A stretch of 34,100 bases of DNA from a bacterium (GTDB lineage: Bacteria > Actinomycetota > Thermoleophilia > Solirubrobacterales > 70-9), in NCBI GenBank assembly GCA_023251975.1, contig JAHEXU010000011.1, positions 1 through 34,100 of the forward strand, in the 5' to 3' direction. Positions 10,013 through 27,923 of the stretch are shown piece after piece (the first letter of the stretch is position 1; every line of letters begins with the position of its first letter). Both the position numbers and the translations under genes were made by a program. Under the pieces are notes generated by a model. The model saw only the letters and a program-made list of their open reading frames with translations. It was not told the origin of the DNA and did no database searches.

Positions 10013-10062
10013 TTGGCGTCTGCTCTCCTCGGGTTTCGAAAACTGCGGTCGGTTCCAAGACA

Positions 10063-10100
10063 ATACTACGCCCTGTCTGGACACCGCGTTCGGGTAGTAT
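10063..10100. promoter_or_regulatory. Divergent promoter/operator with inverted TAGTAT boxes
   Basis: In the 97-bp gap between the divergent genes, ATACTAC (10063-10069) and GTAGTAT (10094-10100) form a perfect 7-bp inverted repeat. TAGTAT is thus present on each strand as a possible -10 box for each transcript. Between them lies the palindrome TGTCTGGACA (10074-10083), a possible repressor site. Neither strand has a clear -35 box. Confidence 0.4.
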
Positions 10101-10109
10101 GAGCGACTG

Positions 10110-10892: not shown

Positions 10893-11695
10893 CCGAGACA
10901 CTGCTCAGCGACGGCCCGGTGCTGCTCGACCTCGACGGCGGGATAGCCCGGCTGCGGCTGAACCGCCCCGAAGCGTCGAACTCGCTCAACCAGGCGCTGT
11001 TGGAAGCCCTGGTCGAGGCGATGCGCCTATGCGGCGAGGCGGCGGGCCTGCGCGTCTTGGTGGTGAGCGGCGAAGGCGACAACTTCTGCGCCGGCGGCGA
11101 TGTCAAGGAGTTCGCGGCGAAGGGCGATGGGCTGCCCGACTACCTGCGGTGGGCAACAGCCCAGCTCCAGATCGCGACTCGGGCGATGCTCGACCTGCCG
11201 GCGCCGGTGATCGCACTAGTCCAGGGCTGGGCGGCGGGCGGCGGCGGGCTCGGGCTGGTTTGCGCCGCCGACCTGGCGATCGGAACCGAGGGCTCACGCT
11301 ACATCTCCGGTGCGACCCGGGTCGGCATGGCCCCCGACGCCGGCGGCAGCGTCACGCTGGCGCAGATCGTCGGGGTTCGAAAGGCGATGGAGCTATTTTT
11401 GACCAACCCGACCCTGACAAGCGACGAGGCGCTCCGGCTCGGGATCCTCAACCAACTCGTCGCCGACGACGAGTTGGCAGTACGAGGTGCCGAGCTGGCC
11501 GCGCAACTGGCGGCGGGACCGACGCTGTCGTTTGCCGAGACGAAACGGCTGGTTTGGGCGGGTCTCGGTCGGACCGTCCAAGATGCGCTCGACGACGAGG
11601 CCGAAACGGTCAGCACGCTGTCGGCAACCGCCGACTCGATGGAAGGTCTGCGCGCCGTAATCGAGCGCCGACGCCCCACCTACACGGGAAGCTGA
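10889..11695 (+). CDS. Enoyl-CoA hydratase/isomerase family protein (PaaG-like)
   Basis: This 268-residue crotonase starts at ATG 10889, four bases overlapping the previous gene, with AAGGAG upstream. It has GEGDNFCAGGDVKEF (about 61-75) and VQGWAAGGGGLGLVCAADL (about 110-128). There is no Glu at the first catalytic position, but RVGMAPDAGGS carries the Asp of PaaG-type isomerases. It resembles the gene at 436-1248 more than its operon partner does. The coupled pair of a Glu-retaining and a PaaG-like crotonase suggests sequential isomerisation and hydration (or ring opening) of one acyl-CoA. The substrate is unknown. Confidence 0.88.
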   Translation: MTETLLSDGPVLLDLDGGIARLRLNRPEASNSLNQALLEALVEAMRLCGEAAGLRVLVVSGEGDNFCAGGDVKEFAAKGDGLPDYLRWATAQLQIATRAMLDLPAPVIALVQGWAAGGGGLGLVCAADLAIGTEGSRYISGATRVGMAPDAGGSVTLAQIVGVRKAMELFLTNPTLTSDEALRLGILNQLVADDELAVRGAELAAQLAAGPTLSFAETKRLVWAGLGRTVQDALDDEAETVSTLSATADSMEGLRAVIERRRPTYTGS

Positions 11696-11704
11696 GGCGT
11701 CGCG

Positions 11705-12445
11705 ATGGACCTGGGATTGAGCGGTCGCCGGGTCTTTGTGACCGGCGGCGCCCGCGGGATCGGCGCCGCGATCTGCGAGTGCTTCGCCGCCGAAGGGGCC
11801 GAAGTGATGGTCGGCTACCGAAGCTCGACCGAGGGGCCCGAACTGGCCGAACGGCTCGGCGGTAGCGCCGTCAAGCTCGACGTTGCCGAGCCGCAGGCCA
11901 CAATCGAAGCGGTTGCCGGACTCGGCACCCTCGATGTCCTGGTCAATAACGCCGGCGTCGACGACATGGCCTTTTTCACCGAATACACACCGCAGCGGTG
12001 GCGAGCCCAGCTTGACATCAACCTCGAAGGCGTCCTTCACTGCACCTTGGGAGCGCTGCCGGCAATGCAGGCGGCGCGCGGGGGGCGGATCATCAACGTC
12101 TCCTCAGAGGCGGGGCGCCTTGGCTCTTACCGGGGATCGGTTTACGCGGCGGCGAAGGGCGGCGTGATCGCCTTCACCAAGTCGATCGCTCGCGAGAACG
12201 CCCGCTTCCAAATCACCGCCAACAACGTCCTCCCCGGCCCGATCCAGACCCCGATGCTAGAGGAGAACCGCCACGGTCCGAAAGGCGATCTGGTCGTCGA
12301 GGCAATGGCAAACGCCACCCTGATGCGGCGAATCGGCGCGCCCGAGGAAGTCGCAGCCGCAGTCGTGTTCCTCGCCTCAGCGCGTGCCTCCTACATCACC
12401 GGCGAGACCCTCGGCGTCTCCGGTGGGATGGGCACCGGGGCCTGA
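11705..12445 (+). CDS. SDR-family oxidoreductase
   Basis: This classical short-chain dehydrogenase has 246 aa. The cofactor motif is TGGARGIG (13-20) and NNAG is at 81-84. The active-site Ser is in NVSSEAG (133/134), with Tyr147 and Lys151 in YAAAK. The C-terminal GETLGVSGGMGTGA is typical of FabG-like enzymes. The GYRS after the second strand suggests NADP(H) preference; this is weak inference. It starts 10 bases after the preceding stop with TGAGG upstream, so it is the third gene of the operon. A 3-hydroxyacyl-CoA (or hydroxy-ring) dehydrogenase after the two crotonases would make a coherent pathway. Confidence 0.88.
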   Translation: MDLGLSGRRVFVTGGARGIGAAICECFAAEGAEVMVGYRSSTEGPELAERLGGSAVKLDVAEPQATIEAVAGLGTLDVLVNNAGVDDMAFFTEYTPQRWRAQLDINLEGVLHCTLGALPAMQAARGGRIINVSSEAGRLGSYRGSVYAAAKGGVIAFTKSIARENARFQITANNVLPGPIQTPMLEENRHGPKGDLVVEAMANATLMRRIGAPEEVAAAVVFLASARASYITGETLGVSGGMGTGA

Positions 12446-13119: not shown

Positions 13120-13759
13120 TGTTGTGTAAGTGCACTCAGCAGAGCGTCGGGGGCGGGGCAACCGGCCGGGCTACCGCAGCTCGGCCACTGCGACCCCGGC
13201 CACGGTTCGTTGAAGATGTTGTAGCCGAGGATCCGCTCGTCGCCGCGAAACTCGCGAACCACTCGTCCCCATCGCCCTGCAGCCCGACCCGGCCGGGGCC
13301 CGCAGCGTTTGTCATGAAGTGGTCGACGGCCGGGAGACGGGCGGCATGAACAGGTAGTTGGCGGGAAAGCCGTTGTCGGGCTCGGCAGGACCCAGAACCC
13401 CTGGCGCTGAAGCATCCGCGCGGTTCGCGCGATCCGAGCCAGGTAGGCCTCGTTGTAGACGCCGGGCTCGGGCTCAAGTCCCTTGTGAATGATCCCGAGG
13501 CGGATCGTGTCAAAGCCGTTGCGGTGCAGGAAACGGGCATCGTCACGGCCGAAGCCAATCGCCGCCGGGTGATACGGCGCCAGCTTGTTGACCATGCCCC
13601 ATCCCTGGAGGATCACGACCCGGCCCTCGGCGTCGGTGATCCAGCGACACTCATGTCCGAGCGGGGCGGTCGGCTGCGCGGCGTCCGATCCGGACGCCAA
13701 GGCCTGAGCGCGATCGCGGCAAACAACGAGGCGAGGCACCAGCGAGGACCACGGAGCAT
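13120..13759 (-). pseudogene. GH5 endoglycoceramidase-like glycosidase, decayed and truncated
   Basis: From ATG 13759 comes a signal peptide (MLRGPRWCLASLFAAIA). After a frame change follow RWITDAEGRVVILQGWGMVN, FGRDDARFLHRNGFDTIRLG and EPGVYNEAYLARIARTAR, typical of secreted GH5 endoglycoceramidase-like enzymes. The segment with the usual HQDxYNE motif is deleted after GFWVL. EPDNGFPANYLFMP, then AVDHFMTNAAGPGRVGLQGD, then FRGDERILGYNIFNEPWPG appear in three successive frames. The acid/base Glu of NEP is kept, but the C-terminal half with the nucleophile is missing. At GCPAPDALLSALTQQ the frame runs into the unrelated exported protein. At least three frameshifts and two deletions make it inactive. 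Confidence 0.7.
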
Positions 13760-13816
13760 CAACGGCGGTCTAAGCCCGAGATGACGAAACGAGCATCGTG
13801 CGCTTCGCTGTGCCAA

Positions 13817-13840
13817 GCAGACATCTGCGTCTGCTAATCT
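13817..13840 (+). promoter_or_regulatory. vapB promoter and operator palindrome
   Basis: GCAGAC-ATCTGC-GTCTGC (13817-13834) is an inverted repeat directly before a -10-like TAATCT (13835-13840). TAATCT ends 6 bases before ATG 13847, so the antitoxin mRNA is probably leaderless, and no Shine-Dalgarno is present. Its position fits autoregulation by the RHH antitoxin, alone or with the toxin. Confidence 0.5.
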
Positions 13841-13846
13841 GCACGT

Positions 13847-14083
13847 ATGCGTACAACCCTCAACCTCAATCCCGAGCTGGCGCGGACGGCAAAGCGCGTC
13901 GCTTCGGAACGGGGGGTGACCTTGACGGCTTTGATCGAGGAGGGGCTGCAGGGTGTGCTCACCGATCGCCGTCGCACGAAGGCGTTTCGGCTTAATCTCC
14001 CGGTCATCAGGGGACGGCGCGCACCGACCGTCGACCTGGCCGACCGTGATCGGCTGTACGAGCTGCTCGACCAGCCCGACTGA
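13847..14083 (+). CDS. vapB: VapB-type antitoxin
   Basis: This 78-residue protein starts MRTTLNLNPELARTAKRVAS, a ribbon-helix-helix N-terminus with a beta strand (RTTLNLN) followed by two helices (ELARTAKRVASERG, TLTALIEEGLQGVL). It resembles the DUF2191/VapB group. The C-terminal tail (RAPTVDLADRDRLYELLDQ) is the part that usually wraps the toxin. It lies 17 bases upstream of a PIN-domain gene, the standard antitoxin-first order. It should bind its own promoter palindrome and block the PIN nuclease. Both genes look intact, unlike the other toxin-antitoxin relics in this window. Confidence 0.85.
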   Translation: MRTTLNLNPELARTAKRVASERGVTLTALIEEGLQGVLTDRRRTKAFRLNLPVIRGRRAPTVDLADRDRLYELLDQPD

Positions 14084-14100
14084 AACGCCGGGCGGGCCGG

Positions 14101-14535
14101 TTGATCGCTGTCGACACCAACATCCTGCTGTACGCGCACCGCGCGGACTGTCCTCAACACGATACGGCGCTCGTCGCCGTTACTGACTTGGCCGAGGGGG
14201 AGCCGGTTTGGGGGGTCCCCGTCTTCGTGATCGCGGAGTTCTTGCGGGTTGCGACACATCGCAAGGTGTTCGAGCCCCCGAGTTCGCTCGAGGCTGCCCT
14301 CGCGGCACTTGGAGCGATCCTCGCCAGCCCGAGTGCGCGGGTCTTGATGCCCGGCGATCGCTTCGTGCCGCTGCTGAGGGAAGTCACGCTTGGATCGGGG
14401 GCGGTTGGGAACCGGATCCATGACGCCTCGATCGCCGCAGTGTGTCTGGAGTGGGGGGTCTCGGCCCTCCTAACCGAGGACCGCGACTTCGAACGCTTCG
14501 ATGGGATCAGGGTTCAACGGCTCAGGTCGGCGTAG
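14101..14535 (+). CDS. vapC: VapC-type PIN-domain ribonuclease toxin
   Basis: This PIN nuclease has 144 aa. The acidic metal-binding set is complete: Asp5 (AVDTNILLYA), Glu46 (VIAEFLRVA), Asp108 (RIHDASIAAV) and Asp127/Asp129 (LLTEDRDF). VapC toxins cleave specific sites in tRNA or rRNA with Mg2+. The start is TTG 14101; there is no ATG or GTG nearby that keeps the first Asp. It is in an operon with the antitoxin. Just after the stop, an IS1380 relic begins on the other strand. Confidence 0.87.
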   Translation: MIAVDTNILLYAHRADCPQHDTALVAVTDLAEGEPVWGVPVFVIAEFLRVATHRKVFEPPSSLEAALAALGAILASPSARVLMPGDRFVPLLREVTLGSGAVGNRIHDASIAAVCLEWGVSALLTEDRDFERFDGIRVQRLRSA

Positions 14536-14552
14536 TCGCAGCCCCGTGATAT

Positions 14553-14941
14553 GAGACGGGCGCCGAGCTCGACGGCCCGCTCCCGCGCCTTTGCCCGGGC
14601 GGCACTGATCGCCTCCAGCTCGCGCTCCCCGATCGCGTCGATCAGCCGAAAGGCGGTGGAGCCCGAGGCCACCGACCCGAACAGATCGGGCTGATCGCGA
14701 AGCGCGGCGGTCTGCGAGGTGTTCACCGCCCTGGGCGAACACGACTGGGAGGTCACGGATCACCTCGCCGGGGTCGTGGCGGCCGCGGCGCTTTCGGACC
14801 CCGCCAAGGGCCTTCGAGAGCTCGGCCGTGAGGCCGAGCCGATCACTGAGATTCGACAGCGCAAGCGCACCGGCGTGTGTCGCAAAGTCCCTCGCCGTCA
14901 GCCGTGATCTCGACAGTCTCGGACGATCCGTTTCTTTTCAC
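14553..14941 (-). pseudogene. IS1380-family transposase, N-terminal remnant
   Basis: From GTG 14941 the reverse strand reads ETVEITADGEGL and then shifts frame. It continues with ATHAGALALSNLSDRLGLT, RGRHDPGEVIRDLPVVFAQG, shifts again, and then reads LRDQPDLFGSVASGSTAFRL and ELEAISAARAKARERAVELG. These are the N-terminal blocks of IS1380 transposases (GEGLVSHAG, DRLGLT, HDPG.V.RDL, LRDQPELFGPVASDxTAFR). The match stops at LGAR, before the DDE core. Two frameshifts and the truncation make it inactive. I cannot identify terminal inverted repeats. Confidence 0.75.
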
Positions 14942-15214
14942 TTCACGGTGGGGCCGCCTGGGTTGGGGATGCTGGTTGCGATGCCTAGCTTTACCCAGCT
15001 CAGGAGGCGAATTTATGTGCTCAGGCGTGGTTCACGGGCCAGCTTGATGCACGATCTGGGGTGAGGGTGCGTGTCGGCGAGGGTGACCGGGTGAACCGCG
15101 TGATTCGGTGCCAACGGCGTCGGTTGCGCGCCAGAGAGCCGTCTCCGTTGGCTTGAGACTGACGGTCATGCAACCGATCAGTTCGCCGTCACGATCTCGA
15201 ATAGGATCTCGGTC
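14942..15214. other. Intergenic, upstream of the P450
   Basis: No gene is supported. The outer end of the IS1380 remnant is probably here, but no terminal repeat is clear. Near the P450, TTGAGA (after TTGGC, about 15154) could be a -35 box; no matching -10 is convincing. AGGATC about 9 bases before GTG 15215 may serve as ribosome-binding site. Confidence 0.4.
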
Positions 15215-16498
15215 GTGCCGCTTCCTCCCGGGCCGAGAATTGGCTCGATCGCCTGTACCGCGCGTTTCATGTGGCGGCCGATCGATTCGCTACTGACGTG
15301 GCACCGTCGCTACGGCGACGCCTTCACGGTCCCATACCTGCGCTTTGGCACCGGGGTCTATGTTGCCGACCCCGATGAAATTAGATCGATGTTCACCGGC
15401 GACCAGTCGAGCCTGCTGGCGGGCGAGGCGAACTCGCCGCTGGAGCCGGTCCTCGGCTCCTCCTCGGTGCTGGTGCTGGACGGCCCCGAGCACATCCGCC
15501 AGCGCAAGCTGCTCTCACCGCCGCTGCAGGGCGACCGCCTCGGATCGATCCGCGAAACGATCCGCGAGGTCGCCTCGACCGAGATCGACGGCTGGCGAAG
15601 CGGCGAGACAATCGTGGTCCGAGCGCGGATGCGCCAGGTCACCTTCGATGTGATCGCCCGGACCGTCTTTGGCGTCAGCGACCCGGATCGAATCGCTCGG
15701 CTGCGCGAAGCCCTGATGGCGCTGCTCAACCTCGGCCCGGCCTTCTTCTTGCCCGACGCGATGCGGACCAACCTCGGGCGCTACAGCCCCGGCGGGATCT
15801 TCGAGGCGCGGCTCGCCGCCGCCGATCACCTGCTCTATGAGGAGATCGCCCTGCGCCGCGCCGCGCCTGACCTCGACCGTCGTGGCGATGTGCTGTCGGC
15901 GCTGCTGCGAGCCCGCGATGACGACGGCGGTGCGATGAGTGACGCCGAGTTGCGCGACGAGCTGATCACCATGCTGGCGGCGGGACATGAGACGACCGCG
16001 ACCGGACTGGCCTTCGCGTTTGAGCTGGTGGCGAGGCATCCCGAGGTGCAGGAGCGACTGCGCTCCGAGCCCGACGACGACGCCTACCTGAAGGCGGTCG
16101 TCAGCGAGGTACTGCGGCTGCGGCCGGTGATCGACGCCAGCGAACGGACCCTGACCGAGCCTCGACAGGTCTGCGGGTATCAGCTGCCAGCCGGGATCCG
16201 GGTTTACCCGGCTGCGGTCTGTGTCCATCACCGCGCCGACATCTACCCCGAACCGGAGCGATTCCGCCCCGAGCGATTCCTTGAAGGGGAGCAGCAGCCG
16301 TACTCGTGGATCCCGTTTGGCGGCGGGATTCGCCGCTGCATCGGCGCCTCGCTCGCGCAGGCGGAGATCGCCGAGATTCTGCGGATAGCGGTTACCCGGC
16401 GGCGCTTCGAACCGGTCCGCCGCGACCCCGACCCGGTTGTTCTCAGCGGTATCACCCTGGCGCCGAGCCGCGGCGTCGCGCTGCGAATCACCGGCTGA
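15215..16498 (+). CDS. Cytochrome P450
   Basis: This soluble bacterial P450 has 427 aa and starts LPPGPRIGS, the proline hinge usual in this subgroup. The I-helix oxygen-binding motif is AGHETT (256-261), the ExxR motif is EVLR (298-301), and the heme loop FGGGIRRCIGASLA has the thiolate Cys375. The N-terminal RRYGDAFTV..FG..VYVADPDEIR and LVLDGPEHIRQRKLL match the CYP110-like group that oxidises fatty acids and terpenoids. The GTG start at 15215 keeps the proline hinge. It is convergent with the acyl-CoA dehydrogenase 13 bases beyond. It needs a ferredoxin and reductase, neither of which is present here. Confidence 0.93.
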   Translation: MPLPPGPRIGSIACTARFMWRPIDSLLTWHRRYGDAFTVPYLRFGTGVYVADPDEIRSMFTGDQSSLLAGEANSPLEPVLGSSSVLVLDGPEHIRQRKLLSPPLQGDRLGSIRETIREVASTEIDGWRSGETIVVRARMRQVTFDVIARTVFGVSDPDRIARLREALMALLNLGPAFFLPDAMRTNLGRYSPGGIFEARLAAADHLLYEEIALRRAAPDLDRRGDVLSALLRARDDDGGAMSDAELRDELITMLAAGHETTATGLAFAFELVARHPEVQERLRSEPDDDAYLKAVVSEVLRLRPVIDASERTLTEPRQVCGYQLPAGIRVYPAAVCVHHRADIYPEPERFRPERFLEGEQQPYSWIPFGGGIRRCIGASLAQAEIAEILRIAVTRRRFEPVRRDPDPVVLSGITLAPSRGVALRITG

Positions 16499-16511
16499 GC
16501 ACGCCAGCGAG

Positions 16512-17552
16512 TCAGCCTTCGAGCAGGGCGCCCGCGAGCTCAGCCGAGACCGTGTCGTGGCTTCCGTAGAGGCGGCGCAGCAGCTGTCCGCGTCGGAAGT
16601 AAAGCGGCGCATCGTGTTCCCAGGTGACTCCGATCCCGCCGTGGACCGACATGCACCTCCGGGTCGCGAGGTCAACCGCGGTAGCGGCACCGAGGCGGGC
16701 GGCGAGGGCGCGACGACGGAATCCTTCGGGGTTGTCGGCGTACTCCGAACAGGCGTCACGAACCAGCACCTCAGCCACCTCGAGCCGACGCAGTACCTCG
16801 ACCAAGCCGTGCTTTATCGCCTGAAAGGAACCGATCGGACGGGCGAAGGCGAACCGCTGCTTGGCGTATTCGACACCGAGCTCAAGCGCCGAGCGCCCGG
16901 TTCCGCAAAGCGACGCCGCGACCAAGAGGTGGGCGAGGGCACAGACACGGTTGCGGGCTGCGGTGTCGAGTGCAAGCGCACTCGCGGCGGCCCCGGAGAA
17001 CGAGGGCCGCGCCACCGCGACGCTCGGATCGAACGAATCGATCGCCTCGACCACCAACCCGACGGCATCGGCATCGACACACCAGGCGCTGGCGGCGGTG
17101 ATCACGACCAGCACGTCGGCGCCGGGAAGATCCGGGGTTAGCCCGCCGCTACCGCTCAGGCGGCCCCCCTCGTCGGCGCTCACGCTGGCCGAACCGAGCA
17201 CCGCCGCGGCGCGCAGCTCACCGCCAGCCAGCGCCGCCAGCCGCGGATCGCCGGGATCAGCGGCGGCAATAGCCGCGGTCCCAACCAGGTGGCCGATCAG
17301 CGGCAGCGGCGCCAGCCGACGTCCTGCCTCGGCCAGCACCAGCGCCGCCTCGGTCGGACCGAGGCCGGCTCCGCCCGCCTCCTCGTCGACCAACAGCCCG
17401 GTCCAGCCAGCCTCGACGGCGGTCGCCCACTGCTGCACGAGTTCGGCGCCGTCGAGCGCCGCGCGGATCGACTCCAGTGAGCAGACGCGCGACAGCGCGT
17501 CGGCCGCCGCCTCCTGGACGAATTTCTGCTCATCACTCAAAAAGGCTGGCAT
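16512..17552 (-). CDS. Acyl-CoA dehydrogenase, small beta-type subunit
   Basis: This 346-residue protein is shorter than catalytic acyl-CoA dehydrogenases (about 380-400). It has the N-terminal helical domain (FLSDEQKFVQEAAADALSRV, EEAGGAGLG), a reduced middle domain, and a C-terminal domain with RPIGSFQAIKHGLVEV, SVHGGIGVTWEHDAPLYFRR and LYGSHDT. This is the pattern of the non-catalytic-like subunit of heterotetrameric FadE enzymes known from mycobacterial steroid side-chain degradation. Its likely partner is the alpha-type subunit at 18593-19771. ATG 17552 overlaps the stop of the upstream SDR (TGATG), so the two are translationally coupled. Confidence 0.85.
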   Translation of the reverse strand: MPAFLSDEQKFVQEAAADALSRVCSLESIRAALDGAELVQQWATAVEAGWTGLLVDEEAGGAGLGPTEAALVLAEAGRRLAPLPLIGHLVGTAAIAAADPGDPRLAALAGGELRAAAVLGSASVSADEGGRLSGSGGLTPDLPGADVLVVITAASAWCVDADAVGLVVEAIDSFDPSVAVARPSFSGAAASALALDTAARNRVCALAHLLVAASLCGTGRSALELGVEYAKQRFAFARPIGSFQAIKHGLVEVLRRLEVAEVLVRDACSEYADNPEGFRRRALAARLGAATAVDLATRRCMSVHGGIGVTWEHDAPLYFRRGQLLRRLYGSHDTVSAELAGALLEG

Positions 17553-18391
17553 CAGCTCGTCATCCCCAGCGCGAGGCCACCGCTGACCCCGAGGACCTGC
17601 CCGTGCACGTAATCAGAACCGGGCGAGCAGAGGTAGTAGACGCCGCGCGCGGCCTCCTCGGCGGTGGCGGGACGACCGAGCGGGATGAAGTTGTGGAAGG
17701 CTGATCGTGCCTGCTCAGGGATCCCGATCGGGAGCTTTCGATCGTCACCGAGGTCGATCTCGCCGACGGTCCCGATCGCTGCGGTCAGCCGGGTCTCGAT
17801 CGCCCCGAAGGCGATCGCGTTGACGTTGATCTTGAGCGGCCCCCACTCCTTGGCAAGCGCCTTGGTGAGCCCAACCGAACCACCCTTCGCCGCGGCGTAT
17901 GCGACCTGACCGGCATTGCCCATCACCCCCGACAGCGAGGTGACCGTAACGACCTTGCGAAAGACCTCGCGACCGGCCGCCTGGTCGGCCTTGGCCGGCT
18001 CGCGCAGGTAGGGCGAGGCGGCCCGGAGCATCCGAAACGGGACCGTCGTGTGGATCGCGATCATCGCCTCCCACTGCTCGTCGGTGATCTTGTGAAGCGG
18101 CGCGTCCCAGGCGTAGCCGGCGTTGTTGACGAGAATGTCGATCCCGCCGAACGCCTCGACCGCAGCCTCGACCAGCTGCTCGCAGACGCCGCCAGCGGTC
18201 AGGTTGCCGCTGTGAACCGCGGCGTCGCCGTGCAGCGAGTCGGCGACCGACTGCGCCAGATCCCCGTCGAGGTCGGACACAACCACCTTGGCGCCGGCCG
18301 CGCTCAACTTGCGGACGGTCTGCTCGCCGATCCCGCGGGCCGAGCCCGTGACCACCGCGATTCGGCCCTCCAATTCCTTTGCCTCGCCCAT
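17552..18391 (-). CDS. SDR-family oxidoreductase (FabG-like, 3-hydroxyacyl dehydrogenase type)
   Basis: This 279-residue protein has TGSARGIG (15-22), Asp40-containing VVVSDLD (suggesting NAD), NNAG (89-92), Ser152/154 (TSLSG), Tyr165 and Lys169 (YAAAK). An insert of about 15 residues (EPAKADQAAGREVF) lies before the active-site strand, and the end is GQVLGVSGGLALGMTS. ATG 18391 has AAGGAG 7 bases upstream. The gene is coupled to the beta-type acyl-CoA dehydrogenase downstream and divergent from the alpha-type subunit. Oxidation of a hydroxyacyl-CoA or a ring hydroxyl in the same pathway is the likely role. Confidence 0.88.
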   Translation of the reverse strand: MGEAKELEGRIAVVTGSARGIGEQTVRKLSAAGAKVVVSDLDGDLAQSVADSLHGDAAVHSGNLTAGGVCEQLVEAAVEAFGGIDILVNNAGYAWDAPLHKITDEQWEAMIAIHTTVPFRMLRAASPYLREPAKADQAAGREVFRKVVTVTSLSGVMGNAGQVAYAAAKGGSVGLTKALAKEWGPLKINVNAIAFGAIETRLTAAIGTVGEIDLGDDRKLPIGIPEQARSAFHNFIPLGRPATAEEAARGVYYLCSPGSDYVHGQVLGVSGGLALGMTS

Positions 18392-18450
18392 CTCCCTGCT
18401 CCTTTTCAAGCCATAACTCGCTGGCGCGCCCGGTCGCGTCCAGGGGCGAA

Positions 18451-18475
18451 CTGTACAGGCTGTTTGAACACCTCG
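18451..18475. promoter_or_regulatory. Operator-like site O1 (divergent region)
   Basis: This 25-bp site contains CTGTACA, TGTTTG and ACAC..TCG. It matches site O2 (18539-18563) at 20 of 25 positions in the same orientation, 88 bp apart. It lies close to the SDR start, so it could repress the leftward transcript. Confidence 0.55.
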
Positions 18476-18538
18476 TCGGAGCCACCCAGGGCGCAGGACC
18501 GCAGCCCGCAAGCGCCGCCCGCCATTTCAGCGCGATCG

Positions 18539-18563
18539 CTGTACACTGTGTTTGTACACGTCG
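18539..18563. promoter_or_regulatory. Operator-like site O2 (divergent region)
   Basis: CTGTACA and TTGTACACG place two TGTACA palindromes seven bases apart, giving an inverted-repeat operator of the TetR-target kind. It ends 29 bases before the TTG start of the alpha-type acyl-CoA dehydrogenase. The repeated occurrence with O1 supports a shared regulator of both divergent operons. Which regulator is unknown. Confidence 0.6.
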
Positions 18564-18592
18564 TAGGATCGCGGCCGAGAGGGAGCCGACAG

Positions 18593-19771
18593 TTGAAACC
18601 CAAGGACACCGCCGAGCAGGCGGCATTCCGTGCAGAAGTGCGCGATTACCTGGCACAAATTGCCGACCAGGCACCCGAAAGCGCGACCGAGTCGGCCTCG
18701 GTCGCTGCTCGCGCCGCCTGGCAGCGCAAGCTCGCCGAGGGCGGCTTCGTCGGGGTCGCCTGGCCGGCCGAACACGGTGGCCGCGGCCTCGGCCCGCTCG
18801 AACAGATGATTGTCGACGACGAGCTTGAGCGCGCCGATCTGCCGGGGATCCTCGACTTCATCGGGATCGGGATGCTCGGGCCGGCGATGATCGTGCATGC
18901 CTCCGAGCAGCAACAGCACCGCCACCTCGGGCCGCTCCTGCACGCCGAGGAGGTTTGGTGTCAGCTCTTCAGCGAGCCTGCCGCCGGGTCCGACCTCGCC
19001 GGGATCAAGGCCCGCGCCAAGCTCAGCGACGGCGGCGGCTGGACAATTGACGGGCAGAAGGTTTGGACGACCAACGCCCAGTTCGCCTCCTACGGGATGC
19101 TTTTGGCGCGAACCGACACGAGCGCGATCAAGCATCGCGGCCTGACGATGTTCATCGTCGCGATGGACTCAGCCGGGCTCGAGGTTCGCCCGCTCCGCCA
19201 GATCAACGGCGAGGCCCACTTCAACGAGGTCTTCCTCGACGGGGTCGAGCTGCCCGCCGACGCGGTGATCGGTGGGGTCGGCAACGGCTGGAAGGTCGCC
19301 CTGACGGTGCTGATGTTCGAACGGATGGCGATTTCCGGCCACGCCCGCAGCTTCGGGATCGAGCTCGACGCGGTGGTCGAAGCGGTCCGCGATTCGGGCC
19401 GTGGGGACGACCCGATAATCCGCCGCCGCCTGGCCGAGCTGGCGGTCGATCTGATGGCGCTGTCGGCCGCTTCGAAGGAGACCCTGTTCGCGCTGCAATC
19501 GGGGCTAACCCCAGGTCCGGAGGTCGGCCTTCAAAAGGTGACGTTGGTCGAATCGACGACGGCGGCGGGGGAACTCGGAATCGATCTTTACGGGCCCGAG
19601 GCGCTGGTCGCCGGGAATCGCTGGGCCGAGACGACCGCGTTCGCCCCCGGGCTCCGCTCGGCCGGCGGCTCGAATGAGATTCTTGCCACCACGATCGGCG
19701 AGCGAGTCCTCGGGCTGCCGCCGGAACCGCGACTCGACAAGAACGTCGCGTTCGACCAGCTGCCCGGCTAA
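18593..19771 (+). CDS. Acyl-CoA dehydrogenase, alpha-type catalytic subunit
   Basis: The TTG start at 18593 with GAGGGAG upstream gives 392 residues. The N-terminal domain includes GGFVGVAWPAEHGGRGL. The FAD/substrate motif CQLFSEPAAGSDLAGIKARA is followed by DGQKVWTTNAQFA. The usual catalytic Glu position near the C-terminus is Ala (SAGGSNEI). LMFERMAISG instead has a Glu at the place used by isovaleryl-CoA dehydrogenase-type enzymes (LERLVL), so that Glu is the likely base. This arrangement is common in alpha subunits of heteromeric FadE enzymes. It would pair with the beta-type subunit at 16512-17552 and desaturate an unusual acyl-CoA with FAD. The P450 follows 30 bases later in the same operon. 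Confidence 0.9.
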   Translation: MKPKDTAEQAAFRAEVRDYLAQIADQAPESATESASVAARAAWQRKLAEGGFVGVAWPAEHGGRGLGPLEQMIVDDELERADLPGILDFIGIGMLGPAMIVHASEQQQHRHLGPLLHAEEVWCQLFSEPAAGSDLAGIKARAKLSDGGGWTIDGQKVWTTNAQFASYGMLLARTDTSAIKHRGLTMFIVAMDSAGLEVRPLRQINGEAHFNEVFLDGVELPADAVIGGVGNGWKVALTVLMFERMAISGHARSFGIELDAVVEAVRDSGRGDDPIIRRRLAELAVDLMALSAASKETLFALQSGLTPGPEVGLQKVTLVESTTAAGELGIDLYGPEALVAGNRWAETTAFAPGLRSAGGSNEILATTIGERVLGLPPEPRLDKNVAFDQLPG

Positions 19772-19801
19772 CGCCACCCTGAGTACAACGAGGAGATCCA
19801 G

Positions 19802-21025
19802 ATGAGTACTACCGACGCGACCGTCCTAACCGACCACGAGACCTTCGCCGAGGGGCCGCCGCACCCGATGTTCGACGCGATTCGGGCCGAGACGCCGCTC
19901 GCCGACAGCGGCGTCGGACCCGAGGGCAACCGGCTGTGGGCGGTCTGCCGCCATGCCGACATCGCCGAGGTGAGCCGCAGCACCGACCGCTTCTCCTCCA
20001 ACGTCGCCGGAATCTTTCCGAACAGCAACGCCGTCTTCAACCTGATGTTGACCCAGAACCTGCTCCTCTACAAGGACCCGCCCGACCACACCAAGTTCCG
20101 CAAGATCCTGCAGACCGCGTTCGTCCCCAACTCGGTCAACAAGCGCCAAGAACAGGTTCGCGCGACGATCGATGCGTTCATCGACGGTGTGATCGAGCGC
20201 GGCGAATGCGACTTCGTCAAGCAGATCGCGGTCCCGTTCCCGCTGAGCGTCCTGATGGACCTGATGGGCCTGCCCCGCGAAGACATTCACACCCTCGAGG
20301 GCTGGATCGACGCGATTGAGGCGGCCACGATCTCCGGCGTCTCCGACGAGGCGAACCCGGTGATGATGGAGATGGCCCCCTACCTGCTCGAGCAGATCAC
20401 CCGCCAAAAAGAGGCCGGCACCGAAAGCCTGGTGGTCACCCTGGCAAACGCGGTGGTCGACGGTGAGAGCATGAAGGATGAGGAGATCTTGGTCTTCTTC
20501 GGCCTGCTCGTGTTTGCCGGCAACGACACGACCCGCAACACCCTGGCGAACGGAATGCGAGTCCTGCTCGAGCATCCCGAGCAGATGCGGATGCTGGTCG
20601 ACGACCCGTCGCTGATCCCGAACGCGGTCGAGGAAATCCTCCGCTACACCTCGGTTGTCCAGTACTTCTGCCGCACCGCCACCGCCGATACCGAGCTGTC
20701 GGGCTGCCCGGTCGGCGAAGGCGACAAGGTGATGATCTGGTACACCGCCGGTTCGCGCGACCCCGGCGTCAACGACGACCCGCACCGCTTCGACATCACC
20801 CGCGATTCGATTGAGCACATGGCGTTCGGCGGCGGCGGTCGTCACTTCTGCCTCGGTGCGGGGCTCGCCCGCCAAGAGCTTCGGGTCGCCTTCGAACAGA
20901 TCCTGGGTCGGATGGAGAACATCGAGCTGGCGGACGCGCCGGTGCGAAAGCGCACCAACTGGGCCAACGCCCTGACCTCGATGCCGATCACCTTCAGGTC
21001 GGGTTCTCCCCTCAACCCGTCCTGA
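19802..21025 (+). CDS. Cytochrome P450 (CYP124/125/142-like group)
   Basis: This 407-residue P450 starts at ATG 19802 with GAGGAG upstream. It shows LLLYKDPPDHTKFRKIL (about 87-103), the I-helix motif FAGNDTTRNT (238-247), EEILRYTS (277-284) with the ExxR residues, and the heme loop FGGGGRHFCLGAGLAR with Cys350. GNDTTRN and GRHFCLG are typical of the actinobacterial P450s that hydroxylate terminal carbons of steroid side chains and branched lipids; this subgroup call is by resemblance. It is in an operon with the alpha-type acyl-CoA dehydrogenase. Electron donors are not encoded nearby. Confidence 0.92.
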   Translation: MSTTDATVLTDHETFAEGPPHPMFDAIRAETPLADSGVGPEGNRLWAVCRHADIAEVSRSTDRFSSNVAGIFPNSNAVFNLMLTQNLLLYKDPPDHTKFRKILQTAFVPNSVNKRQEQVRATIDAFIDGVIERGECDFVKQIAVPFPLSVLMDLMGLPREDIHTLEGWIDAIEAATISGVSDEANPVMMEMAPYLLEQITRQKEAGTESLVVTLANAVVDGESMKDEEILVFFGLLVFAGNDTTRNTLANGMRVLLEHPEQMRMLVDDPSLIPNAVEEILRYTSVVQYFCRTATADTELSGCPVGEGDKVMIWYTAGSRDPGVNDDPHRFDITRDSIEHMAFGGGGRHFCLGAGLARQELRVAFEQILGRMENIELADAPVRKRTNWANALTSMPITFRSGSPLNPS

Positions 21026-21029
21026 AAAG

Positions 21030-21094
21030 CCGCAACTCCGCCGCCAGCCCCGGACTGGCTCTCTCCTCCCAGTTGGGGCTGGCGCGGGTTGCGG
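21030..21094. terminator. Strong long-stem terminator between convergent genes
   Basis: CGCCAGCCCC (21042-21051) pairs perfectly with GGGGCTGGCG (21075-21084). The stem extends outwards with CCGCAAC/GTTGCGG (21030-21036 and 21088-21094), and the loop holds ACTGG/CCAGT. On the reverse strand the hairpin is followed by CTTTT, fitting termination of the aldehyde dehydrogenase transcript. It may also stop the P450 transcript from the other side. Confidence 0.8.
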
Positions 21095-21161
21095 ACTGAG
21101 ATTATTAGCGGGAGCGCAACCCAGGCGCGCCCCCCGACCAGGTCAGCCGGCTCGTCGCCGC

Positions 21162-22736
21162 TTACCCGGCGCGGCGGTGAACGAACTTGGTGGCGCGGTT
21201 TAGCAGGTTGGTGGTCCGCTTCGAGTAGGGAAACATGTATGGCTCGCGCTTGGTCGGCATCCGATTGACGCTGAGGGTCTGGGTCTTGCAGTACTTGCGA
21301 ATTCCGTTCGAGCCGTGGCGCGAGCCGACGCCCGAGGTCTTCCAGCCACCCATCGGGGCGCCGAAAGCGGCGTAGTTGATCTGAGCGTCGTTGACCAGGC
21401 AGGCGCCGGCTTCGATTCGACGGGCGATCTGCTCACCCCGGGCGTTGTCGCGCGTCCAGACCGAAGCTTGCAACCCGTACTTGCAATCGTTGGCAAGCTC
21501 GATCGCCTGTTCGGCGTCGCGGACCTTCATGATCGGCATCGTCGGGCCGAAGGTCTCCTCGGTCATGCAGTCCATCGAGTGATCGACGTCGACCAGGATC
21601 GTCGGCTCGAAGTAACGCCCGCCGCCGTGCTCGGCGCGCTTGCCGCCGGTCACGATCTTGGCGCCCTTCGCGACCGCGTCGGCGACATGCGCCTCGATAA
21701 TCGAGAGCTGCGGCGCAAAGGTCACCGCACCCACCTCGGTCGAACCCGGTGAGCTGTCGGGCCCCTGACGCAACGCCTTGACCTTCTCGGTCACCTTGGC
21801 GAGGAACTCGTCGTAGATCGGCTCCTCAACATAGACGCGCTCGACCGAGATGCAGACCTGGCCGCCGTTGTTCATCGAGAAGTAGGCGGCAGCGTTGGTC
21901 GCCCGCTCCAAGTTGGCGTCGGCCAAAACAATCATTGGATCCTTGCCACCGAGCTCAAGCGAGGCCGGGGTCAGGTTCCGGGCCGCCCGTTCCATCACCT
22001 TGCGGCCGGTTGCGGTCGAGCCGGTGAACATGACGTAGTCGACGTTGTCAATCATCGCCGCGCCGGTCTCGCCGTCGCCGGTCGCAATCCCGAGCACGCC
22101 CTTTGGCAGGCCCGAGGCCTCCATCATCTCGGCGACCAAGAAGATCGTTAGCGGGGTCACCTCGGACGGCTTCAATAGGACCGAGTTGCCCGCCATCAGC
22201 GCCGGGACGCAATCGCAGAAGGCGTTGACCAACGGGTAGTTCCAGGGGCCGATCACGCCGACCAAACCGACCGGCTCGTAGCGGGTTATCACCTTGCGCC
22301 CGAGCACCATCGGCGAGCGGGCCGAAATCCGCTCATCGCGCAGGTACTTCTCGGCGTGCTTTGCCCAGTAGGCAAACGACTCGAGCGCGACCGCGAGTTC
22401 GAGCCCGGCATCCTCATTGGTCTTACCGGTCTCGTCGATGATCGTCCGGGCGAACCGTTCACGATTGTCGAGCAGCCAGCGCCGGGCCCGATTAAAGACC
22501 GCACCGCGCGCCCGGAACCCAATCGCGCTCCAGCCGGGTTGGGCGGCCCGGGCCGCGTCGGCCAGAGCTCGGACCGCGTCGGCGTCAAGCTTTTCGATCG
22601 ACCCGACACTCTCACCGGTCGCCGGATTCTCGACCGAGATCGATTCGACCGCGCCTGATCCGGCGCTGGCGCCAGCCTCGGAACCGTTCGAAGACTCGAT
22701 CTCAACCGGCTGTTGCTCAACGGTCTCGGTGCTCAC
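21162..22736 (-). CDS. NAD(P)-dependent aldehyde dehydrogenase
   Basis: This full-length ALDH has 524 residues. The GTG start at 22736 has GAGGAGGAAG just upstream. After a Ser/Glu-rich N-terminal extension of about 30 residues comes the cofactor region GVIGPWNYPLVNAF (160-173) and FTGSTATGR (237-245). The catalytic Glu261 is in LELGGKDP and the nucleophile Cys295 in NNGGQVCISVERVYV. The C-terminus is basic (KRTTNLLNRATKFVHRRAG), like ALDHs annotated as succinate-semialdehyde or long-chain aldehyde dehydrogenases. Next to the P450 and FadE genes, oxidation of a P450-derived aldehyde to the acid is a reasonable role. It is expressed convergently to the P450. Confidence 0.92.
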   Translation of the reverse strand: MSTETVEQQPVEIESSNGSEAGASAGSGAVESISVENPATGESVGSIEKLDADAVRALADAARAAQPGWSAIGFRARGAVFNRARRWLLDNRERFARTIIDETGKTNEDAGLELAVALESFAYWAKHAEKYLRDERISARSPMVLGRKVITRYEPVGLVGVIGPWNYPLVNAFCDCVPALMAGNSVLLKPSEVTPLTIFLVAEMMEASGLPKGVLGIATGDGETGAAMIDNVDYVMFTGSTATGRKVMERAARNLTPASLELGGKDPMIVLADANLERATNAAAYFSMNNGGQVCISVERVYVEEPIYDEFLAKVTEKVKALRQGPDSSPGSTEVGAVTFAPQLSIIEAHVADAVAKGAKIVTGGKRAEHGGGRYFEPTILVDVDHSMDCMTEETFGPTMPIMKVRDAEQAIELANDCKYGLQASVWTRDNARGEQIARRIEAGACLVNDAQINYAAFGAPMGGWKTSGVGSRHGSNGIRKYCKTQTLSVNRMPTKREPYMFPYSKRTTNLLNRATKFVHRRAG

Positions 22737-22750
22737 GCTTCCTCCTCGAA

Positions 22751-22765
22751 GCCCGCGCTGCGGGC
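22751..22765. promoter_or_regulatory. Hairpin in the aldehyde dehydrogenase leader
   Basis: GCCCGC-GCT-GCGGGC is a perfect 6-bp stem directly upstream of the GAGGAGG ribosome-binding site of the aldehyde dehydrogenase. On the + strand it is followed by GTTTAAAAT. It could be a 5'-UTR hairpin affecting translation or a leftover terminator. Confidence 0.3.
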
Positions 22766-22856
22766 GTTTAAAATCATGGTTGGCGGCGCGCCGCGCCTAC
22801 CGCAGCAGAGTATCAGGCAAACGGATTGCTCGATCAAGGTGTCCGGACAGATCCGC

Positions 22857-23184
22857 TCAAACGAGCAAGCGCGCCCGCAGTCGTCCGATCGTCGCCGTCT
22901 CGAGGCCGTTGGGTTGCAGGTAGGAGGCGACCTCCGCCGGCTCGCCAAGCGCGACCAAAACCCCAAGCATCGCCGACTCGCAGGGCAACATAAGCGCAGC
23001 ACGGACCGGATCGAGCGGCACCCCATCCGCCAGATCGAAGTACTCGCGGGCCAGCACGGCGCTGCGCTCGAGCGGCGGTGCGTCTCCGAGGTAGCGCGCC
23101 AGGACGCTCGCGTGGTCAACCCCGAGCAGTCGTTGCAGCAGGGGCGCGACGATGCCGGTGCGATCCTTGCTTACCGGCGGCACA
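22857..23184 (-). pseudogene. Tyrosine-phosphatase family protein, C-terminal half only
   Basis: The reverse strand reads KDRTGIVAPLLQRLLGVDHA, then SVLARYLGDAP, and ends ASYLQPNGLETATIGRLRAR with LLV. This matches the end of Tyr_phosphatase_3-type enzymes (HCxxGKDRTG...LGV...YL...GL....LR..L). Just before it, another frame gives CAAGK, so the P-loop signature CxxGKDRTG is recoverable if four extra bases (CAAG, a local duplication) are removed. Nothing phosphatase-like precedes the Cys: the adjoining DNA is the start of an AveC-like fragment on the opposite strand. The 5' half is lost. Confidence 0.65.
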
Positions 23185-23185
23185 G

Positions 23186-23713
23186 CCAAAGGCCCTGATC
23201 GCGCTGGCCGATCTGCTGCTGGAAATCCCGATCATCAAGATCGCCGGGCTAGCCGGGCTCTACACCTACTGGGGGGAGCGCCAACCGTTTTACTCGCAGG
23301 AGTGGTTCCCGCTGCCGATTTGGTTCATCACCACCAACCGCTGGTTTAACCTGCTGCTGGCGCTGACGATCATGGCGTTGATGTCGACCCGAATCCGCCA
23401 TATCGAGTTGTCGATTCCGTTCGTCTTGCCGGCGGGCTGCTACGTCAGCTATGGCTCGGTCACCTGGTCGGTAATTGCCGCGCTGCAAAACCACGCGGGC
23501 AGCGCCCTAACCTGGTTGGCGGGGTGGGGAACGATCGCGCTCGGCTGGTTCGCCACCTACCTCGGCGCCCGCTACGCGCCACGGCTACGCCATTCGCTCG
23601 ATCACCTCGACTCGGCGACCAATAAAGGCCCGGCGGCGGGCCGAATCAGCCCCGCCGAGCATCTCCAGCCGCTCGCTCGCGCCATCGACCCGGACCCGAT
23701 CGCAGTCTCATAG
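23186..23713 (+). pseudogene. AveC-like membrane protein, C-terminal half only
   Basis: The + frame reads LADLLLEIPIIKIAGLAGLY, TYWGERQPF, WFPLPIWFITTNRWFNLLLA and several further hydrophobic segments (PFVLPAGCYVSYGSVTWSVI, WLAGWGTIALGWFATYLGAR). The pattern of DxxxEIP..., YxYWG.QPF and PL.W corresponds to the second half of the intact AveC-like protein at 28989-29843 (VDVFLETPGI...YYGHQPF...PLWW). No start codon lies between the junction at about 23185 and the first conserved block, so the 5' half is missing. Residual expression from an upstream GTG would give a nonsense leader. Confidence 0.65.
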
Positions 23714-23766
23714 CCGCTCGCTGGCCTCGCGGGTGTCGAGGGGGAGCGAAGCCCGATTCCGTCCGA

Positions 23767-24126
23767 TCACGGTGCAGCTTCTGCGTCGCCGTATCCGTAT
23801 CGTTGGGCGTGTTCTACGTACTCGCGACACAGCCCCGGCGCGTCACCCTGAGCAATATGCTCCTCACACAGCGCGACGATGTCCGGATTCCAGTGCGGCG
23901 TGACCAGTCCGTGGATGTCGGCGGCCGAAGGACAGTCCGGAATGTAGAAATCAACGTGGATGTCGGCCCCCTTCAAAGCTTCCGTCTGCGCAGGGCACGC
24001 GGCGGCGGTCTTGTGCGGTCCGGGCGGCACCTGACCACCCTCTTCGTCTTGGGCGAAGAAGAGCCCAGCCGACATTCCGACCAGCGCTCCCACAGCCCCG
24101 AGGATAGCTAAGACTTTTCGGTTCAT
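23767..24126 (-). CDS. Small exported Cys-containing protein, unknown function
   Basis: ATG 24126 has GGGGTGG a few bases upstream; GTG 24135, three codons earlier, is an alternative. The 119-residue product begins MNRKVLAILGAVGALVGMSA, a signal peptide ending near LFFAQDEEGG. The mature part carries four Cys (AACPAQ, IPDCPSA, ALCEEH, GLCREY), enough for two disulfides. There is a helical stretch (PDIVALCEEHIAQGD, LCREYVEHAQRYGYG) with Cys spaced as in helical-hairpin folds. I do not recognise the family. It lies directly after the truncated Doc gene on the same strand. Confidence 0.65.
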   Translation of the reverse strand: MNRKVLAILGAVGALVGMSAGLFFAQDEEGGQVPPGPHKTAAACPAQTEALKGADIHVDFYIPDCPSAADIHGLVTPHWNPDIVALCEEHIAQGDAPGLCREYVEHAQRYGYGDAEAAP

Positions 24127-24150
24127 TGCAACCACCCCAGTTCGTCCGTT

Positions 24151-24380
24151 TCAGTGCCAAGCCACCAGATGGACCAGCCTGCTTCCACGATCGACTATAC
24201 CCCCCCCCCGAAGCGTTTTGCCAGGGTAGAAGTCGGTACCGTCAAAGGTCGCGGCCGGTGAATGCAGCGCGGAGTCGGCGAGCCCAAGGTTCGGCAGACG
24301 CCCCACGGTCTCAAGGCTGGGGCCGGTGAGTGCGGCGGCAATTACGACGTAGTCGGCGAGGTCCAAATATAGACGCTCAT
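24151..24380 (-). pseudogene. Doc/Fic-type toxin, frameshifted and truncated
   Basis: ATG 24380 overlaps the antitoxin stop (ATGA) and starts MSVY. After a one-base frame error near 24366 the frame reads LDLADYVVIAAALTG, RLPNLGLADSALHSPAATFD and GTDFYPG, the N-terminal half of Doc/Fic toxins. The motif HPFxxGNKR needed for phosphorylation or AMP transfer is absent. Instead the frame passes through a run of ten G residues and stops. This makes it an inactive relic of an RHH-antitoxin/Doc-toxin operon. Confidence 0.65.
24200..24209. repeat. Run of ten C
   Basis: A homopolymer of ten C (+ strand) lies in the 3' part of the broken Doc frame, upstream of the exported-protein gene. Such tracts are prone to slippage in cells and to length error in sequencing. 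Confidence 0.9.
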
Positions 24381-24586
24381 CGCGCGAGACGTTCGAGAAG
24401 CTCCCGATCCTCTTTGATGATCTTGCCTAGTCGCGCGCCGAATTCAGGATCCTCACGCCGACGTTCAACGGCAGCCCGAAGCGCCTCCTTGACCGTTTCG
24501 TTGATGCTCGTGCCGTCGACGCGGGCCAGCGCAGCCGTATCGGCGGCAAGTACCTCATCAAGTCGGATCGTCAGATTCTTGGTCAT
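24377..24586 (-). CDS. RHH-type antitoxin of a Doc-like toxin
   Basis: This 69-residue protein reads MTKNLTIRLDEVLAADTAAL, then VDGTSINETVKEALRAAVER and EFGARLGKIIKEDRELLERL. The short N-terminal strand (NLTIRL) followed by two helices is the ribbon-helix-helix pattern, and the C-terminal helix would bind the toxin. Its stop overlaps the ATG of the Doc-like relic, as in intact operons. With the toxin broken, it may persist as an orphan antitoxin or repressor. ATG 24586 lacks a Shine-Dalgarno. Confidence 0.75.
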   Translation of the reverse strand: MTKNLTIRLDEVLAADTAALARVDGTSINETVKEALRAAVERRREDPEFGARLGKIIKEDRELLERLAR

Positions 24587-24594
24587 GAGGCCAT

Positions 24595-24621
24595 GATACC
24601 ACGGTGCAAGTTCGGATACCA
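24595..24621 (-). promoter_or_regulatory. Direct repeat at the antitoxin promoter
   Basis: On the reverse strand TGGTATC occurs twice, 20 bp apart (24621-24615 and 24601-24595). The downstream copy is part of TATCAT, a possible -10 box about ten bases from ATG 24586. Two half-sites on one DNA face suit an RHH autorepressor. Confidence 0.35.
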
Positions 24622-24659
24622 GCGGCTGGCTTGCTCTTGGGAACGGCCCCGCCGCGATG

Positions 24660-24678
24660 GGGAGCCTTAAGGGCTCCC
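24660..24678. terminator. Hairpin upstream of the antitoxin operon
   Basis: GGGAGCC-TTAAG-GGCTCCC is a perfect 7-bp stem with a 5-base loop. There is no T-run on either side, so terminator activity is uncertain. Confidence 0.4.
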
Positions 24679-24738
24679 GAAGCCTCGATCCACCGAGCCG
24701 GTCGAGTGAATCCGCGGGCCAGGCGAAGCTGTGGGTCG

Positions 24739-24782
24739 ATTTGCGGACACCCGCGGGGTGGTGCCCCGTGGTAGTCGCAAAT
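24739..24782. other. Nested inverted repeat of unknown role
   Basis: Outer arms ATTTGCG (24739-24745) and CGCAAAT (24776-24782) enclose an inner CGGGG-TGGTG-CCCCG stem (24754-24768). It could be an IS end, a small structured RNA element or a protein-binding site. No gene overlaps it convincingly. Confidence 0.4.
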
Positions 24783-25035
24783 TAGCTTCCAGCGCCAGGA
24801 TGGCGCGGGGATTCGCCGTCCGGATCGGTGAATCGAGGCTAAGCCAGGGCGCCGTTCCGATCTCCCCCGGGCGCAAGAAGGATGGCTTTGACGATGCTCG
24901 TGGCCGATCCCGCAACTGACCTGGCTGATGTCAGTCTCAGCTGCTTTTCGTTGCGTTCCGTGGGAGCTGCGCCCGGGACGCGATGGGGCGGAACTGCTCG
25001 CTTCGCGCCGTAGCAGTGGTCGCGGGGTGCCGGCG

Positions 25036-25191
25036 AAGGGCCGTTTGATTACGGCGATCGCGCTTGCAACCGGGCTTGCGATCGTGACCCTGACCGCGCG
25101 CGACTTCGACGGCTCAAGCGTGTCGGTCATCGACCCGCGCTCGGGTGACCCGAGTTCGGGAGCAGATCGCGACGGCACGAACTCCGGTTGA
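25036..25191 (+). pseudogene. PIN-domain (VapC-like) C-terminal remnant
   Basis: The frame reads GRLITAIALATGLAIVTLTA, then RDFDGSSVSVIDPRSGD. This is the final helix, strand and Asp motif of VapC toxins (DALIAATALAHGLTLVTRNVRDFEG..V.VINP). Upstream of GRLI the match stops, so the first two thirds of the gene are gone. It is a toxin fragment without nuclease activity. Confidence 0.55.
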
Positions 25192-27482: not shown

Positions 27483-27923
27483 CGTCCGAGCGGCCGCCGC
27501 CGGGTAGCGACGAGCTGTCGGCGCGAACCGCATCGTTTCCGGACCCTCCCGAAAATCCAACTCATCACCTCTTCCCCACTGGTCCCCGGCATCCGGTCGC
27601 CAAGCAGCGCCAAGAACTTCAGTGCGATCGCGATCCGCCCGTCATACGGCCGCACCGATGGCCCAAATCGCCCGCTCTCAGCGGCCGAGATCACCCCGAG
27701 CCGCCGCTTCAGCCGTTTGGTTGCGCGATCACCCCGGTCGCCCCAAAAGCTCCAGCTCAGCGCCGTCAAAACCCCGGGTGCTGCCTCGCCGACGTTGTCG
27801 GTGGTTCAGTGCTGCTGCGGCGCCCCCGGGCCGGTGCAGGAGCTGTGCAACTCGGTCGTCCATCCCGCCGATCCTACATAATGTCCAGCCTCGCTGTCGG
27901 AACTGTGATATACACCGGCCCCA
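27483..27923. other. Gene-poor stretch before the DUF7064-like gene
   Basis: A reverse-strand frame (about 27770-27483) reads RIAIALKFLALLGDRMPGTS and may belong to the decayed phosphotransferase region, but I cannot assign it. Near the right end, TATACA at 27909-27914 lies nine bases before ATG 27924 and is a fair -10 box for a nearly leaderless transcript. The preceding ACTGTGATATACAC loosely resembles site O2 at 18539-18563. Confidence 0.35.

Follow-up and report, generated by a model that had tools for sequence, protein, structure and literature searches.

The window analysed here (contig JAHEXU010000011.1, positions 1 to 34,100; 34,100 nucleotides) carries two divergent operons whose predicted products include both subunits of an acyl-CoA dehydrogenase. 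The left operon reads on the minus strand from a short-chain dehydrogenase/reductase gene (SDR; 17552-18391; Pfam adh_short_C2, 4.4e-48) into an acyl-CoA dehydrogenase beta-like subunit (16512-17552, minus strand; identified by Pfam, with the IpdE2 model below its cut-off), and the right operon reads on the plus strand from an alpha-like subunit with a TTG start (18593-19771; Pfam) into a downstream cytochrome P450 (19802-21025, plus strand; Pfam p450, 9.7e-25). The best solved matches of alpha and beta are two different chains of one heteromer of the FadE26 type, Tcur3483 (3.9e-43) and Tcur3481 (2.1e-21), respectively. The first-pass annotation had read the two subunits as halves of a heteromeric dehydrogenase; the matches to both chains agree with this, and the heteromer itself is a prediction from sequence. 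Other genes considered here are an enoyl-CoA hydratase (436-1248, plus strand; Pfam ECH_1, 7.8e-55), a CrtO-like FAD oxidoreductase (8414-10012, minus strand, start MATEPK at 10012; Pfam and NCBIfam), two further enoyl-CoA hydratases with an SDR (10110-12445, plus strand; Pfam), a DUF7064 protein (27924-28970, plus strand; Pfam, 3.3e-8) and an EthR-like TetR regulator (29924-30580, minus strand; Pfam TetR_N and EthR_C). The first 282 bases hold the start of a secreted, calcium-binding-like protein on the minus strand, cut by the contig end and transcribed divergently from the hydratase gene that starts at 436.

The gap between the SDR start codon (ATG, 18391, minus strand) and the alpha start codon (TTG, 18593, plus strand) spans 18392-18592, which bears out its reported size of 201 bp, and it contains two similar putative operators, O1 and O2. 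The previously noted identity of 20 of 25 positions between 18451-18475 and 18539-18563 holds in both coordinates and count, but the conserved element is longer than the 25 bp first given: it covers about 30 bp (O1, 18451-18480; O2, 18539-18568), over which 24 of 30 positions agree. These are the best ungapped direct matches in the gap, and neither 20/25 nor 24/30 was reached in any of 2,000 dinucleotide shuffles. With up to three mismatches allowed, the merged 30-base pattern matches only O1 and O2 in the window and nothing in 100 shuffles. Across the genome, TGTACANNNTGTTTGNACA at up to three mismatches has 10 matches against 6 for a reversed control, and below three mismatches finds only O1 and O2. 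Both sites share one anatomy, ACA-N3-TGT followed 13 bp on by ACA-N3-CGT: the cores of O1 are ACAGGCTGT (18455-18463) and ACACCTCGT (18468-18476), and those of O2 are ACACTGTGT (18543-18551) and ACACGTCGT (18556-18564). The two TGTACA palindromes reported in O2 are present (18540-18545 and 18553-18558) but are not the working unit; TGTACA-N7-TGTACA, tried as the motif, has further window matches only at three mismatches. Two other candidates were dropped. AAACANNSTGT with one mismatch, considered as a link to the gap beside the TetR gene, matched 4 times against 3.2 expected, a count reached in 37 of 100 shuffles, and was for that reason excluded from the evidence; a 24-base match in contig C154 falls outside O1 and O2.

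The unit that recurs is a pair of tandem ACR-N3-YGT cores at a 13-bp shift, forming a 22-bp doublet, ACR-N3-YGT-N4-ACR-N3-YGT. The degenerate core AC[AG]NNN[TC]GT occurs 25 times in the window, and among all pairs at shifts of 9-40 bp only five were found, four at 13 bp (at 361, at 10068, O1 and O2) and one at 20 bp (at 30616). Pairs at 13 bp averaged 0.02 in 300 shuffles of the window (maximum 1), and pairs at any shift from 9 to 40 bp averaged 0.70 (maximum 4). The letters of the core were derived in part from O1 and O2, and the independent finds are therefore those at 361, 10068 and 30616. The third doublet, ACAATGCGTCCGTACGGGCTGT (361-382), lies in the gap 283-435 and faces the enoyl-CoA hydratase; the fourth, ACGCCCTGTCTGGACACCGCGT (10068-10089), lies in the divergent gap 10013-10109, with the CrtO-like gene that it faces on one side and the two hydratases and SDR on the other. 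Between the TetR gene and a divergent amine-oxidase-like gene lies a probable autoregulatory pair, ACATCGTGT and ACATCGCGT, 20 bp apart (30616-30644). A weaker site, the single core ACATAATGT (27876-27884), stands 39 bp before the DUF7064 gene, with a degenerate second core. By count, the single core ACANNNTGT does not stand out in the window: it occurs 4 times where 2.08 are expected, and 16 of 100 shuffles have as many. In another scan of pair shifts, 13-bp pairs numbered four, shifts of 20, 24, 27 and 30 bp had one each and the others none, but the stretches used had been chosen partly because they held matches, so these counts are not an unbiased sample. The search for the motif elsewhere in the genome, proposed in the first-pass annotation, has now been run, and the exact doublet recurs: it occurs at six places in the 3.47-Mb genome, four of them in this 34-kb contig (O1, O2, 361 and 10068), one at C243:432 in the promoter region of an EthR-like TetR gene and one at C137:1560 upstream of an SDR domain. 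Allowing up to one mismatch raises the number to 40, and the reversed control then gives 17. An identical 22-base near-match stands at five places (C18:3831, C113:23714 and 24660, C183:5913 and C250:11871) and probably lies inside a repeated element. The pseudo-palindromic doublets thus lie in the promoter regions of their putative target genes, as TetR-family operators do, and one type of doublet precedes several operons of the cluster (361, 10068, O1 and O2), as in a shared regulon.

Of the eight oriented doublet ends in the window, four carry a −10-like TAnnnT hexamer whose first base is the last base of the doublet (offset 0), and all four face a gene; the background is 0.0079 per T. The putative −10 of the SDR-beta operon is TACAGT (18450-18455, minus strand), which shares its first base with the end of the O1 doublet as read on that strand, and that of the alpha-P450 operon is TAGGAT (18564-18569, plus strand), which overlaps the final base of O2's doublet in the same way. 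The corresponding hexamers are TAAGCT (382-387, plus strand) on the hydratase side of the 361 doublet and TAGTAT (10063-10068, minus strand) on the CrtO-like side of the 10068 doublet. A scan of 18300-18700 for the strict sigma-70 consensus found no promoter and no −35 box, so the −10 elements are ones that we infer. The same register is found at C243:5321 and on C137, where the hexamer points away from the SDR, and it fails at C243:432, C118:17753, C243:13648 and both doublets on contig C146 of genome G187.

A scan of 232 genomes of the order for the doublet plus TAnnnT, with no mismatch allowed, returned 26 places spread over 13 genomes (5 of them in this genome and 21 outside it), against 4 control places. 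The sites are bunched, with four within 28 kb in G040 (1350123-1377986), three within 7 kb in G093 (175739-182448) and three within 12 kb in G097 (13472-25145). Single hits in G045 and G181 from a different search, that in G181 inside a long open reading frame, were set aside. The G040 stretch encodes homologues of the CrtO-like protein (47% identity), the DUF7064 protein (56%), the protein at 28989 (51%), a PEP-utilizer (39-50%, three copies), the hydratases (51-60%), alpha (51%), beta (45%) and two TetRs (40% and 30%), and, just as in the window, its doublets with their −10 hexamers face the genes for the CrtO-like protein, the hydratase and alpha-beta. In each of G093 and G097 one doublet faces a hydratase homologue (53-55%), and G187 has doublets upstream of homologues of an ALDH (61%) and a P450 (53%); at the P450 homologue the −10 register does not hold. 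Orthologous intergenic regions in related genomes, to which the first-pass annotation had pointed for a check, gave a divided answer. At 33 alpha homologues that are closer by sequence (56-60% identity) and lie in a different gene context, the preceding 400 bp do not contain the core ACANNNTGT, whereas the doublet is kept at the 51% homologue within the G040 cluster; among 23 more distant alpha homologues ACANNNTGT lies upstream in one locus. Judged from these sequences, the putative operator goes with the cluster and not with the enzyme family.

The arrangement of the subunit genes bears on where the two copies came from. Beta directly adjoins alpha in 32 of the 33 loci of 56-60% identity (the remaining locus reaches a contig end), and in G040 alpha and beta form one operon behind one doublet, whereas in the window they are split between divergent operons with one copy of the doublet for each. 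Among 11 sites compared over 30 positions, O1 and O2 are the most alike (24/30; other comparisons, 14-23), and the next-best match is to the site before G040 alpha (O1, 20; O2, 21), a pattern that fits, weakly, a duplication at the time the operon split. The two sites could also be alike only because a segment of promoter DNA was duplicated and has since decayed, no common regulator being involved, but this is highly improbable: the identity is concentrated at core positions, the 13-bp doublet also stands in unrelated gaps of the window, and it recurs before homologous genes in G040.

The core connects these sites with a class of regulator. The window TetR passes the gathering cut-offs of TetR_N (39.9 against 24 bits) and EthR_C (46 against 27 bits), which places it in the EthR-like subfamily, and no solved protein other than EthR matches it at E ≤ 1e-5 (best 5e-10). 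The genome has 29 TetR_N matches, of which 8, the window TetR included, form a subfamily with the signature SVExL...SRSTFYxYF, assigned by eye on the recognition helices. Within 450 bp upstream of the helix-turn-helix (HTH), ACANNNTGT is present at 3 of these 8 EthR-like genes (the window gene, one on C243 with two sites and one on C118) and at 1 of the 21 other TetR genes, there inside coding sequence. At the relatives' EthR_C loci (27 of 30 used; in the other three the HTH was not found), 18 ACA-N3-TGT sites fall in 12 promoters, with 0-6 for other spacers, and 31 promoters of homologues of the window TetR hold 18 sites in 11, with 0-5 for other spacers. Pooled with the genome's own 8 and after removal of 6 of 66 as duplicates, 24 of 60 promoters contain 37 sites (other spacers, 0-10); the perfect ACA-N3-TGT is absent from the other 36. 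Degenerate cores in the 60 promoters, taken at distances up to 45 bp, are 12 (14 cases), 13 (2), 20 (7), 22 (4), 24 (6) or 34-41 bp (6) apart and at no other distance, and 21 control TetR promoters contain no core pair. In Mycolicibacterium, four of five strong EthR promoters (L213, L214, L215 and L219) have three TCRACR-N3-TGT cores 20-21 bp apart, and the fifth (L216) has one core at the edge of the stretch, where the start is probably misplaced. Seven weaker loci gave a 20-bp pair in one, a single core in two, none in three and one that was unreadable; L224 was left out since its HTH was not found. The ACR-N3-YGT core is thus common to O1, O2 and the promoters of EthR orthologues, but the 20-21-bp phasing of EthR is not shared by O1 and O2; the window TetR's own site has a spacing of 20 bp. 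Because their cores are 13 bp apart, we regard O1 and O2 as EthR-like in working but do not file them as EthR operators proper.

The fixed register between doublet and −10-like hexamer raises the question of whether the doublet is instead an activator site or an element of an alternative sigma-factor promoter. Offset 0 at four of eight window ends and at the 21 places outside this genome, the latter by design of the search, would suit such an element, as would the lack of a sigma-70 −35 box. We nevertheless consider it unlikely, as TetR-gene promoters carry the same cores at other registers and spacings (offset-0 TAnnnT is found at 0 of 30 oriented 12- or 13-bp doublets from the relatives' TetR promoters), the cores match the EthR type, and pseudo-palindromic doublets would fit protein dimers and not sigma factors.

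The likeliest regulator of the doublets is probably the cluster's own TetR, which the first-pass annotation had named among the proteins to try in a gel shift. Its candidacy is plausible, with EthR as its solved relatives and homologues in related clusters, but unproven, its own promoter pair being spaced 20 bp. Since 13-bp doublets also stand at promoters of other EthR-like TetR genes (C243:432, exact; C118:17753, one mismatch), another TetR could be the binder, for example the C118 tandem pair or a protein encoded on C243, C16, C176 or C204. The 20-bp spacing before the window TetR gene would agree with this, as would the two doublets that flank a tandem TetR pair on C146 of G187. Comparison of half-site letters did not discriminate which TetR binds. 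The window TetR is favoured by its place in the cluster: four of the six exact doublets are on its contig, its homologues lie inside the homologous cluster of G040 and near the doublets of G093 and G097, and it is sister (98/97) to a TetR of G179 whose pair adjoins a CrtO-like gene 51% identical to that of the window. We hold a different EthR-like TetR to be the less likely candidate. We note that EthR-like TetRs often occur as tandem pairs (G000 C118:16481-17703, G187 C146:2853-4117 and G179 C1:2361507-2362895), which are possible heterodimers. A second cluster, on C243 (L202), encodes a thiolase, an AMP-ligase, an MlaE permease, an ABC protein and its own EthR-like TetR, and has doublets in promoter regions at 432, 5321 and 13648, one exact and two with one mismatch.

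Our main reading, to which we give a probability of roughly three in four, is that O1 and O2 serve as a pair of operators for an EthR-like TetR repressor, which controls a local catabolic regulon. The earlier proposal of a single regulator acting on both sites gains from the shared doublet and −10 register with one copy facing each operon, from the doublets elsewhere in the cluster and before G040 alpha-beta, and from the core common to EthR-like TetR promoters. On the other side stand the missing core at the 33 alpha homologues of 56-60% identity, the 20-bp spacing before the candidate TetR gene and the 13-bp doublets at two other TetR promoters, the unremarkable count of ACANNNTGT in the window, the 36 TetR promoters that lack a perfect ACA-N3-TGT, the doublets at which the −10 register fails and the negative strict sigma-70 scan. 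Because the doublet stands before other genes of the cluster and in a related genome, one EthR-like repressor probably switches the pathway jointly. Two TetR dimers would sit side by side on the 22-bp pseudo-palindromic doublet, and because this ends on the first base of the −10-like hexamer, a repressor in place would mask the promoter as far as the −10 and keep RNA polymerase out, O1 silencing SDR-beta and O2 silencing alpha-P450. The inducer may be an intermediate of the pathway, to judge by analogy an acyl-CoA or a comparable lipid-like compound, which would free SDR-beta, alpha-P450, the CrtO-like gene and the hydratase gene at 436 together. More tentatively, and as a possibility on which we would not insist, the EthR-like TetRs of the order may share ACA-N3-TGT and separate their targets partly by two-dimer phasing at 12, 13 or 20-24 bp, the 13-bp form being register-locked to the −10; on this view, O1 and O2 would be operator copies from a split ancestral alpha-beta operon, keeping subunit expression balanced. 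Phasing might in this way help paralogous repressors to avoid cross-talk.

O1 and O2 are real, functional-looking putative operators of a known kind, and what is new is the predicted cluster-wide, cross-genome regulon. An observation of two sites thereby becomes a testable regulon that comprises four doublets with predicted promoters and a single candidate repressor, and that is kept in a relative's homologous cluster. A description of this regulon or its 13-bp phasing was not found in the literature searched, which is not a claim that none is in print. The steroid-catabolism regulators KstR and KstR2 of actinobacteria are TetR repressors of acyl-CoA catabolic clusters with P450, acyl-CoA dehydrogenase, enoyl-CoA hydratase and SDR genes. 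They are alike in placing such clusters under TetR control, but their known consensus motifs differ from the doublet. EthR is reportedly subject to cooperative octamerization on its operator (Engohang-Ndong et al. 2004). Two dimers together occupy 22-32 bp in the dimer-of-dimers binding described for CprB (22 bp), QacR (28 bp), CgmR and Ms6564 (PMC4150764). The long operators of these proteins hold two dimers, and the doublet here, known from its sequence, is 22 bp; their operator sequences are not known to be ACR-N3-YGT doublets. The EthR motif is described as larger and complex, with multiple copies, in a 2015 paper that calls the physiological role of EthR unknown (PMC4482099). Mycobacterial EthR is the closest solved relative of the window TetR, with low overall similarity (E 5e-10) and different target genes. 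EthR orthologue promoters carry phased TCRACR-N3-TGT-N-GA, which contains the ACR-N3-TGT core of O1 and O2, in arrays phased at 20-21 bp as against the 13-bp doublets here, and it is this common DNA core that ties the window to a much-studied repressor.
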